Origin: Microcaldota archaeon
GTDB taxonomy: Archaea > Micrarchaeota > Micrarchaeia > Micrarchaeales > CABMGC01
Direction of reading: 5' to 3'
Assembly: GCA_021848025.1 (NCBI GenBank)
Contig: JAJZND010000022.1
Location: 1 to 32,576, forward strand
Length of the DNA: 32,576 nucleotides
Positions 6,122 through 9,099 of this stretch are shown one piece after another. A model generated the notes under the pieces. That model searched no databases and was not told where the DNA came from. It worked only from the letters and a program-made list of their open reading frames with translations. Each line of letters begins with the position of its first letter. The first letter of the stretch is position 1. The translations under genes and the position numbers were made by a program.

Positions 6122-6155
6122 CTTATATTTATGATATATCATAATATGATATATG
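6122..6155 (+). promoter_or_regulatory. Promoter with overlapping palindromic operator for the PadR-TRASH regulator
   Basis: CTTATATTTA (box-A-like) followed by the perfect palindrome ATGATATATCAT (6131-6142) and a second ATGATATATG copy (6146-6155) 15 bp later, reaching the ATG at 6153. Confidence 0.55.
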
Positions 6156-6605
6156 CATTCCGATATGAAGATAAAGAATCTGACGAAACTTTTTGCAATA
6201 CTCCTTCTCAATGAGAAGAACCAGCACGGATACGACATAATGAAATCAATAGAAGCAAGACTGGGCAGCAAACCCAGCCCGGGGCAGATTTATCCCTTTT
6301 TAAGGCAATTAAAAAGGTACGGATACATTGATGCAAAAGGGGTGAAAGGGGAAAGAGACAAACAGATATACTACCTTACACCAGAAGGCATAAAATTCGT
6401 AAAACGCTTATCAAGCAAACTTGAGGACCTCTTCGAAATTGCAATAAAGCCTAACATTAGCATATGCGCACATTGCGGCTGCGAGATATACAAAGGAGGC
6501 TACAAGGAAAAGATCAATGGGAAATATCTGAGCTTCTGTTGCAGTAATTGCGCTAAAGGTTACAGGCTGATACCTGAATTTGGGATAAATCAAAGAAGCG
6601 TATAA
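6153..6605 (+). CDS. PadR-like winged-helix regulator with C-terminal TRASH metal-binding domain
   Basis: 150 aa: N-terminal PadR-like HTH (LTKLFAILLLNEKNQHGYDIMKSIEARLGSKPSPGQIYPFLRQLKRYGYI) plus ICAHCGCEIYKGGYKEKINGKYLSFCCSNCAKGYRLIPE (TRASH: CxxCG...FCCSNCxxxY). Confidence 0.85.
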   Translation: MHSDMKIKNLTKLFAILLLNEKNQHGYDIMKSIEARLGSKPSPGQIYPFLRQLKRYGYIDAKGVKGERDKQIYYLTPEGIKFVKRLSSKLEDLFEIAIKPNISICAHCGCEIYKGGYKEKINGKYLSFCCSNCAKGYRLIPEFGINQRSV

Positions 6606-6606
6606 A

Positions 6607-6681
6607 ATGGCAAATAAAGGAACCAAAGCAGATTGCGGCGGATGCCCTTCAACAATTACGGAAAAAATAGGGTGCCTGTGA
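6607..6681 (+). CDS. Putative Cys-containing micropeptide MANKGTKADCGGCPSTITEKIGCL
   Basis: ATG one base after the regulator stop; 24 codons plus TGA; contains a CGGC motif. Below the ORF-track size cutoff. Confidence 0.4.
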   Translation: MANKGTKADCGGCPSTITEKIGCL

Positions 6682-6726
6682 ATGGCATCTGAAAATATGC
6701 ATGCAAAAATGCAAGGTAAATGTTAA
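6682..6726 (+). CDS. Putative Met/His/Cys micropeptide MASENMHAKMQGKC
   Basis: ATG directly after the preceding TGA with no gap; 14 codons plus TAA; 3 Met, 1 His, 1 Cys. Confidence 0.25.
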   Translation: MASENMHAKMQGKC

Positions 6727-6738
6727 ATTGGTGAAAAA

Positions 6739-6882
6739 ATGATAGATCCGGTATGTAATATGGAGATAAACGAAAAGTCCAAATTCAAAAGCAGCTATAA
6801 TGGCAAGGTTTACTTCTTCTGCTCTGCAAGTTGCAAGCAGAGTTTCGAAAAAGAGCCTGATAAGTATGTGAAAAGGAAATGA
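6739..6882 (+). CDS. Stand-alone YHS-domain metal-binding protein (47 aa)
   Basis: MIDPVCNMEINEKSKFKSSYNGKVYFFCSASCKQSFEKEPDKYVKRK: DPVCxM...YFFCSxxCKxxFxxxPxxY is the YHS signature. Missing from the ORF track (<60 aa). Confidence 0.85.
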   Translation: MIDPVCNMEINEKSKFKSSYNGKVYFFCSASCKQSFEKEPDKYVKRK

Positions 6883-6895
6883 AAGTCTGTTGCGC

Positions 6896-7000
6896 ATGTC
6901 AGACGATGTCCATTTCTGTAGTAAGATGGCATTCAAGTTCTGCCATGCGTGTCAAGCTGGGCTCAACTGCAGCATGCGCTGCAATGAAATGCCAGTATGA
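6896..7000 (+). CDS. Putative Cys-rich micropeptide MSDDVHFCSKMAFKFCHACQAGLNCSMRCNEMPV
   Basis: 34 aa with 5 Cys, 2 His and 4 Met; fits between the YHS gene and the ATPase gene without overlap. A different-frame Cys-rich ORF (6879..7061) overlaps it, so the coding frame is unresolved. Confidence 0.42.
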   Translation: MSDDVHFCSKMAFKFCHACQAGLNCSMRCNEMPV

Positions 7001-7023
7001 AAGGCAAGCGAAAGGCGTAATAA

Positions 7024-9099
7024 ATGGCAAACGATCCTGTATGTGGAATGTATGTCGATGAGAAGAAATCCTCATTAACTAGTGAGAAGGAAGGCAGAAA
7101 GTATTATTTCTGCAGCACTACCTGCAAAATACAATTCGACAGGCCTGAACTTGAGATGAAGGTTCTGAAGAAAGCACTTGCAGTTTCATGGCCGTTGACT
7201 GTGGCAATTGCAATAATGACGTATGTTCTTCATTTCAGTTATAGCAACGACGTAATGCTTGTACTCGCGAGTATAGTGCAGTTCTATGCCGGCAAAAGAT
7301 TCTATGCAGGAATAGCGGATGCCATAAATAATAAATCAGCAAATATGGATACGCTGATAGCAATAGGTTCGAGTACAGCATGGGCATATAGCGCAGCTGT
7401 TGTATTATTACCTGCATTTTTTCCCGCAGGAAATACGTACTTTGATACATCTGCAATAATAATCTCGTTAATATTGACCGGAACATATATGCAGAGAATT
7501 GCAGAGTCAAGGGCTTCAACAGCAGTCTCCGCCCTTGTAGCTCTGCAGCCGAAGATTGCACATCTTGTGAAAGGAAACAGGATAACTGATGTTAGCATCG
7601 AGGGAGTAAAAATTGGAGACATACTTCTTGTGAAGCCTGGAGAAAAGATTCCTACCGACTCTGTAGTTATCGAAGGAGAAAGCTCCTTAGACGAATCGAT
7701 GATTACCGGGGAGAGCATGCCTATCACAAAAAGAAACGGCAATAAAGTTACTGGCGGGACAATCAATTTAACAGGCTCGCTGAAGATCAGGGCGTACAAA
7801 GTCGGCAATGACACTGCGCTCGCACAGATAATAAAAATAGTACAGGATGCAACCTCAAGCAAGGTTCCGATACAGAAACTTGCTGATAAGGTAGCATCCT
7901 ACTTTGTCCCTGTAGTGGTGCTAGTAGGCATAATCTCTGCCCTTGGATGGTATTTTGTTGGTGCAGTAGGGCTCAATACCTCCATACTGATATTCGTCAG
8001 CGTGCTTATCATAGCCTGCCCCTGTGCGCTAGGCATAGCTACTCCTGCAGCCCTGCTTGTTTCATCCGGAAAGGCAGCGAAGGAAGGCATACTCGTGAAA
8101 ACAGGAGAAAGTCTGCAGGTCGCAAGCAAAGTCAATACGATAGTCTTCGATAAGACAGGCACCCTTACTAAAGGCAAGCCTGAAGTTACAGACATAGTTG
8201 CTGTATCCGGCTACAATGATAAGGAGATCCTTGAACTTGCAGCGACCGCAGAGCTGAATTCAGAGCATGTACTGGGCAAGGCCATAGTAGCTAAGGCAGA
8301 AAAAGAGGGGATAAAAATAGGGCATCCTAAAAAATTTATATACAGGCAAGGTTTCGGAGTCAGCGCAGTCAATAAAAAGGGTAAAAAAATTGCCGTAGGA
8401 AATAAGGGCATGGCCAATATTAAACTGGAAGATAGCTTAGAAAAGAAGCTTCTGGAAATGGAGGCGGAGGGAAAAACAGCCCTGATTGTAAGTGTAGATG
8501 ACGGAGCTGCCGGTCTCATATCTCTCGCAGATGCACTTAAGGAAGATAGCAAAAAGGCAGTGAATGCTTTTCGAGGCTCTAAAATTGACCTTTGGCTGAT
8601 TACAGGCGATAACGAACGCGTCGCAAGCGCAGTTGCAAGAAAGCTAAGAATAAAGAATGTCATGTCACAGGCAAAGCCCAGTGAGAAAATGGAAAAAATT
8701 ATCGAGCTGCAAAAATCAGGCAAAGTGGTGGCCATGATTGGCGATGGAGTCAATGACGCACCTGCACTTACAAAAGCAGATCTCGGCATAGCCATAGGCG
8801 CAGGAACTGAAGTAGCCATACAGGCAGGCGGCATAATCTTGATAAAGAACAGCATTTATGATGCCTATGTGGCAATTGAACTTGGAAAGAGCACCATGTC
8901 CAAGATAAGGCAGAATCTCCTCTGGGCCTTTGGCTACAATGTAATACTTATCCCTGTTGCAGCTGGCGCACTTATCCCAATATTTACGGTAAGTATCTAT
9001 AACTTCCTGCCTCTGCTTGCTGCTTTTGCAATGGCATTTAGTTCGGTCACAGTCGTGGTAAATTCCCTTCTTCTTGGCAGGTTCAGGGTAAAAGGATAA
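7024..9099 (+). CDS. P1B-type metal (copper-type) transporting ATPase with N-terminal YHS domain
   Basis: 691 aa: N-terminal DPVCGMYVDEKKSSLTSEKEGRKYYFCSTTCKIQFDRPE (YHS), TGES, CPC (ACPCALGIATPAALLVSSG), DKTGTLTKGKP, GDGVNDAPAL. Confidence 0.95.
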   Translation: MANDPVCGMYVDEKKSSLTSEKEGRKYYFCSTTCKIQFDRPELEMKVLKKALAVSWPLTVAIAIMTYVLHFSYSNDVMLVLASIVQFYAGKRFYAGIADAINNKSANMDTLIAIGSSTAWAYSAAVVLLPAFFPAGNTYFDTSAIIISLILTGTYMQRIAESRASTAVSALVALQPKIAHLVKGNRITDVSIEGVKIGDILLVKPGEKIPTDSVVIEGESSLDESMITGESMPITKRNGNKVTGGTINLTGSLKIRAYKVGNDTALAQIIKIVQDATSSKVPIQKLADKVASYFVPVVVLVGIISALGWYFVGAVGLNTSILIFVSVLIIACPCALGIATPAALLVSSGKAAKEGILVKTGESLQVASKVNTIVFDKTGTLTKGKPEVTDIVAVSGYNDKEILELAATAELNSEHVLGKAIVAKAEKEGIKIGHPKKFIYRQGFGVSAVNKKGKKIAVGNKGMANIKLEDSLEKKLLEMEAEGKTALIVSVDDGAAGLISLADALKEDSKKAVNAFRGSKIDLWLITGDNERVASAVARKLRIKNVMSQAKPSEKMEKIIELQKSGKVVAMIGDGVNDAPALTKADLGIAIGAGTEVAIQAGGIILIKNSIYDAYVAIELGKSTMSKIRQNLLWAFGYNVILIPVAAGALIPIFTVSIYNFLPLLAAFAMAFSSVTVVVNSLLLGRFRVKG

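Follow-up and report, generated by a model that had tools for sequence, protein, structure and literature searches.

A predicted copper operon of the archaeal cop kind in a Micrarchaeota genome, with a PadR–TRASH regulator and a single candidate operator

Does the interval between a TRASH-type regulator and a metal-transporting ATPase in a Micrarchaeota genome encode a series of tiny metal-binding peptides, or is it largely spacer around one small chaperone gene? The locus lies on contig C10 of a 1.05-Mb draft assembly (88% complete, Micrarchaeota lineage), within the 32,576-nucleotide stretch analysed here, which we call the window. An earlier note had recognised a compact set of metal-handling genes resembling the known copper operons of archaea, as our results bear out; the positions it gave for the regulator, four small ORFs and the ATPase were correct, and Pfam searches confirmed the regulator, a YHS peptide and the ATPase. 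Our comparison set comprised 164 genomes of the order: two congeners, namely the window genome and its sister G001 (the sole congener found), and 162 others. The features of the locus are as follows.

6123..6130, plus strand: TATA-like element TTATATTT, putative operon promoter, judged by its sequence
6134..6154, plus strand: 21-bp near-palindrome ATATATCATAATATGATATAT, candidate operator, from its conservation before PadR–TRASH genes
6153..6605, plus strand: PadR-type winged-helix regulator with a C-terminal TRASH (metal-sensing) domain, from Pfam, alignment and AF2 model
6607..6681, plus strand: 24-aa frame (CGGC), no conserved gene, from shuffles, sister alignment and homologue search
6682..6726, plus strand: 14-aa frame continuing the 24-aa frame past a TGA, no conserved gene, from sister alignment
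6739..6882, plus strand: 47-aa stand-alone YHS peptide, CopM-like putative copper chaperone, from Pfam and order-wide occurrence
6883..7023, plus strand: spacer containing the 34-aa frame, at the position of the SCN gene in relatives, from gap length and sister alignment
6896..7000, plus strand: 34-aa frame with 5 Cys, within this spacer, from sister indels and ATG->ACG
7024..9099, plus strand: YHS-CopA, predicted P1B-1 ATPase for export of Cu(I)/Ag(I), its N-terminal domain being YHS in place of HMA, from TIGR models, structures and motifs

The regulator is a protein of 150 aa whose N-terminal half matches Pfam PadR (PF03551, E 8.6e-14, 51.7 bits at a cut-off of 27). Its tail stays below threshold in Pfam, with an HVO_1752-type TRASH match at E 4e-4 (score 20.9 against a cut-off of 27); cysteines 105, 108, 110, 129, 130 and 133 of this tail are invariant among 15 homologues at 45–70% identity. 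Compared with PadR structures, the AF2 model is closest to 3elk (E 6.5e-6; Foldseek probability 1.00), and dN/dS against the sister is 0.12 (NG86). Other families of the class have PadR–TRASH proteins too, and two of them (L234, L236) encode an HMA-type CopA directly after the regulator.

The 47-aa peptide downstream is assigned to Pfam YHS with E 2.6e-19. In the alignment, its residues D3, C6, C28 and C32, the presumed metal ligands, are invariant, and an SD-like GGTGA stands 4 nt before its ATG. Against the sister its dN/dS is 0.12 (NG86) or 0.45 (YN00), a ratio that is unreliable at 31–47 codons, so that the argument on small frames made below is carried by indels and codon counts. Order-wide, 52 of 92 stand-alone YHS peptides have a YHS-ATPase at most 1.2 kb downstream, and 31 of the 92 have a PadR–TRASH gene at most 1.5 kb upstream. 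Both congeners also encode a second, orphan YHS peptide, which in the window genome has 50 aa (L221:647-799, G000 contig C8) and is 43% identical to the first. Between PadR–TRASH and YHS, several relatives have a gap of about 400 nt holding a Met/Gly/Tyr-rich membrane protein of ~110–130 aa (L014:1637-2035 on the minus strand; also L017 and L080), for which a Pfam search returned no match. In G027, a plastocyanin-like protein (L015:822-1472) is encoded directly upstream of the YHS gene, with a weak match to Pfam Copper-bind (E 0.009); this neighbour may speak, weakly, for a copper operon.

The third gene encodes an ATPase of 691 aa with Pfam matches to E1-E2 ATPase (4.6e-57) and, at its N-terminus, to YHS (1.4e-11). 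TIGR01525 (1.7e-179) and the copper model TIGR01511 (3.2e-168) both score above their cut-offs, and the nearest solved relatives are the CopA structures 7r0g (2e-163), 3j08 and 3j09. Besides DKTGT, TGES and GDGVNDAP, the protein contains the motifs CPC (332), N-x6-YN-x4-P (631) and M-x2-SS (670). The latter three motifs and the proximity to CopA structures make Cu(I)/Ag(I) the likely substrate, the P1B-1 signatures being unable to tell Cu(I) from Ag(I). The ATPase gene has a dN/dS of 0.10 against the sister; like the regulator and YHS genes, it shows 90–91% identity to G001 with zero indels.

In their order on the plus strand, a PadR–TRASH regulator, a CopM-like YHS peptide and a YHS-CopA with Cu(I) P1B-1 signatures, these genes reproduce what distinguishes archaeal cop (copTMA) operons: a helix-turn-helix regulator with a C-terminal TRASH domain, a small YHS chaperone near the ATPase and a P1B-1 ATPase. 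The Lrp/AsnC DNA-binding domain of CopT and CopR is absent from the window regulator, which is PadR by Pfam and by fold; we therefore class the operon as a cop-like variant rather than a strict copT member. The same type of cassette occurs in other labelled genomes, mostly of Candidatus Micrarchaeota, and the lineage given above for the window genome is based on this.

The near-palindrome ATATATCATAATATGATATAT lies between the TATA-like element and the regulator gene and overlaps the start codon; in relatives, a TATA-like TTTATATA keeps the same position relative to it. With 0–2 mismatches the palindrome precedes most PadR–TRASH genes, its flanks not being conserved. At no more than one mismatch there are 23 sites among the 164 genomes, one per genome, and checking their coordinates against the PadR–TRASH search placed 22 of the 23 just upstream of a PadR–TRASH gene and the remaining one before a broken PadR–TRASH frame. 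A reversed-pattern control gave 1 match in all 164 genomes, and in the window genome the operator is unique at this threshold. At L233 (G070 contig C33) the operator is intact, while the PadR–TRASH gene stops after ~60 codons, near the contig end. The operon is thus apparently autoregulated through one site per genome. Repression by the regulator is suggested by the operator position, since the placement would suit steric repression of the regulator's own operon, with activation as the alternative.

Many relatives have a further gene between the YHS peptide and the ATPase. It encodes a peptide of ~47 aa with six cysteines and the motif WCSxHxSCN, which we call the SCN peptide (consensus YxCxICGLHYxSKxLAxxCxKWCSxHxSCNLxxARHSIEA) and for which neither Pfam nor NCBIfam gave a convincing match. 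The six cysteines are invariant in 45 diverse members, and one close pair has a dN/dS of 0.056. Of the 164 genomes, 109 have a match at E <= 0.1, some of these matches being weak and at chance level; of 107 listed copies, convincing or broken, 51 directly follow a YHS peptide. About half of the order's copies are not beside a YHS peptide; members of the family lie at loci L068–L143 (e.g. L068:4001-4147). The structure model is confident (pLDDT 89.7); no PDB fold resembles it significantly (best E 2.9), and C2H2 zinc fingers account for several of the top weak matches. The family is also found in genomes labelled Thermoplasmata, Nanoarchaeota, Aenigmatarchaeota, Woesearchaeota, Nitrososphaerales and CPR bacteria. 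At L113:3971-5632, an SCN domain stands N-terminally in a 554-aa frame, which also shows a CPVC motif and apparent membrane segments and has no Pfam match. Related oxidoreductase genes accompany SCN at L129, L130, L131, L140 and L141; Pfam identifies the one at L141 as a pyridine-nucleotide disulphide oxidoreductase, which looks MerA-like by eye, and a thioredoxin/glutaredoxin-like protein is encoded in the neighbourhoods of L129, L130 and L140. Some SCN genes are split near residues 21–23 (G131/G132, G135). We considered programmed frameshifting and rejected it: the lesions differ in site and kind, which fits independent decay.

What, then, are the small frames in the window? The earlier note had read the interval 6606–7023 as a run of ORFs encoding, besides the YHS peptide, candidate metal-binding peptides of 24, 14 and 34 aa that, once translated, would act together with the YHS peptide as a metallochaperone relay feeding the pump. 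The plus-strand ORFs are present where they were placed, and their near-gapless tiling speaks for this reading, as do the Cys/Met/His content of the 34-aa frame and the single 38-aa frame of the sister. However, the run of the 24- and 14-aa frames is not exceptional and close to chance expectation for such DNA, as judged by dinucleotide shuffles (longest ORF P=0.32, Cys P=0.08, coverage P=0.05). Of ordinary length (P=0.09), the 34-aa frame is rich in Cys, Met and His (Cys P=0.025, C+M+H P=0.001 against the same kind of shuffles), an enrichment that, examined post hoc, may be chance or the trace of a lost Cys-rich gene. The codon-substitution comparison with a relative that the earlier note had proposed as a check speaks against all three frames, leaving the YHS peptide alone conserved; this is the outcome that the note had named as refuting its reading. 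Relative to the sister, the 24-aa stretch (81% identity) has a 1-nt indel, the 14-aa stretch a 2-nt indel and the 34-aa stretch (78% identity) one 2-nt and one 1-nt indel, its ATG being ACG in G001. Synonymous bias is absent as well: the 24- and 14-aa frames together have 2 synonymous and 9 nonsynonymous codon changes and the 34-aa frame 0 and 7, whereas the ATPase has 131 and 54 (Fisher p 0.0007 and 0.0003, respectively; p 0.019 for the former against PadR plus YHS). With one congener only, these counts come from few codons (31 and about 17). Neither the 34-aa nor the 24-aa frame has an SD-like site before it. The relay thus does not survive comparison within the genus, and we regard it as most improbable. 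A narrower version of it would be that a genus-specific Cys/Met/His peptide of 38 aa is real, intact in the sister and broken in the window copy by a compensated frameshift or an assembly error. A TGA at 6679 splits one frame of the window into 24 and 14 aa, where the sister has a single unbroken 38-aa ORF with 4 Cys; the indels add up to a net multiple of 3, and both congeners keep the tail ASENMHAxMQxKC in frame. Yet the 2:9 ratio and the even spread of substitutions over codon positions (5/4/4) argue against coding constraint, and a search of the 164 genomes with the sister frame gave convincing matches in the two congeners only and none in the other 162, making this version unlikely, if less so than the relay. 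Searches for a spacer RNA gave no Rfam match of note and folding z-scores of -1.7 and -1.3. The start of the 24-aa frame resembles that of the ATPase gene over 17 nt (88%). The intervals 6606–6738 and 6883–7023 are taken to be non-conserved spacer between genes.

The second of these spacers occupies the position of the SCN gene, and whether it is a decayed copy is a question that adds to the spacer reading rather than competing with it. The gap between the YHS and ATPase genes measures 157–177 nt in 30 of 35 SCN-bearing loci, and 16–42 nt in most SCN-less ones. In the window genus it is 154/155 nt, a length that resembles the SCN-bearing loci and suggests an emptied slot, gap length being its sole support. 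SCN genes visibly broken by differing lesions in G131/G132, G135, G066, G018 and G142 are consistent with such decay. On the other side, SCN is absent from the window and its sister, neither showing the six-cysteine WCSxHxSCN pattern at the YHS–ATPase junction, and a frameshift-tolerant SCN profile, which does detect the broken copies in G131, G135, G066, G018 and G142, found no signal above shuffles in either congener (z -1.4 at the strict setting, -0.5/-0.1 at the lenient ones). The 34-aa frame itself, which by eye could be aligned as a frameshifted SCN (VHFCSK.AFKFCH), failed this profile test at three settings. We consider the odds of a decayed SCN copy to be evenly balanced. The remaining alternative concerns the metal, namely that the cassette handles Zn, Cd or Hg instead of copper or silver. 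The metal is not readable from the sequence of the TRASH domain, and the MerA-like oxidoreductase near the SCN domain at L141 would suit such a role, but the Cu(I) signatures of the ATPase, its far closer match to CopA structures (2e-163) than to ZntA (1e-77) and the TIGR01511 score above cut-off render it very unlikely.

We therefore read the cassette, with high probability, as an operon of three genes for copper (silver) homeostasis, of the archaeal copTMA/copRTA kind, in which the 24-, 14- and 34-aa frames are non-functional spacer. In this operon, a PadR–TRASH dimer would most likely occupy the 21-bp operator overlapping its own start and block the single promoter, and Cu(I) bound to the TRASH cysteines would release it. 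The ensuing transcript would provide the YHS peptide as a Cu(I) carrier and, from the same message, the YHS-CopA pump for Cu(I) export. The domains, the ATPase signatures, the conservation and one-site occurrence of the operator and the lack of coding constraint on the small frames are results of the analysis; the identity of the metal, the direction of regulation and the transfer of metal from peptide to pump we infer. A broader proposal, which we hold tentatively and at slightly less than even chances, is that PadR–TRASH proteins form a class of copper regulators of their own, with a one-site regulon in these archaea, and that SCN, as a rule encoded between the YHS chaperone and CopA, is a widespread dedicated partner in copper export that was lost in the window genus. 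The claim of a multi-peptide copper relay, tempting as it is, is wrong, and two testable leads take its place: a TRASH sensor joined to PadR, with apparent control of one promoter per genome through 21 bp, and an unannotated six-cysteine peptide family that goes with copper pumps in Micrarchaeota and also occurs in other archaea and in CPR bacteria.

The cop cluster of archaea, described in Sulfolobus, in Ferroplasma (copYZB) and in Pyrococcus (copR-copA), consists of a TRASH regulator, CopM and CopA (PMC3595675, PMC5328820, PMC7830388). It shares with the window the regulator with C-terminal TRASH, the small TRASH/YHS chaperone, the CopA with a CPC motif and the tandem order. The stacking of YHS modules, which the earlier note had counted as part of an unfamiliar elaboration, is already known, since archaeal CopM and CopA carry TRASH, YHS or HMA domains (PMC5328820, PMC3595675). 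CopM of the cluster has 56–71 aa and contains the DPVCGM primer site (PMC3595675, PMC5328820, PMC7830388); this is the sequence encoded by the degenerate copM primer of Orell et al. (PMC5328820, PMC3595675), from which the start of the window peptide, DPVCNM, differs in one residue. An Asp and three Cys have been proposed as ligands in the YHS copper sensor of an M. phlei adenylyl cyclase (PMC4626032), matching D3, C6, C28 and C32 of the window peptide, although the M. phlei module is part of a cyclase sensor, whereas the window YHS is a stand-alone protein of 47 aa beside a pump. Closer in lineage, 'Ca. Mancarchaeum acidiphilum' Mia14, an acidophilic ARMAN-2-related archaeon of the Micrarchaeota, has a copper fitness island reported as acquired from Thermoplasmatales, and an ARMAN-2 ATPase was noted as only a distant relative of the island ATPase (PMC5498576). 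This Mia14/Thermoplasmatales island, too, brings together a Cu-ATPase, a TRASH/YHS-like metallochaperone and a regulator, the latter of the Lrp-AsnC type (PMC5498576) in contrast to PadR in the window. The PadR family (TA0346, Rv3488, RosR, LmrR, Bacillus PadR) supplies the best structural matches to the window regulator and shares its winged-helix fold, but these matches are limited to the winged-helix half, behind which the window protein adds TRASH as the presumed sensor. Among full-text, open-licence PMC papers, we found none that mentions 'PadR' and 'TRASH domain' together. The PadR DNA-binding half, in place of the Lrp/AsnC half of the archaeal cop cluster, is a real departure from the cop template. 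The operator differs as well: the Pyrococcus CopR motif TTNNCAWWWTGNNAA is located upstream of the BRE, while that of the window is a different palindrome between TATA and start codon. The operon is real and a variant of the archaeal cop cluster, its departures being the PadR DNA-binding domain and the operator that goes with it.
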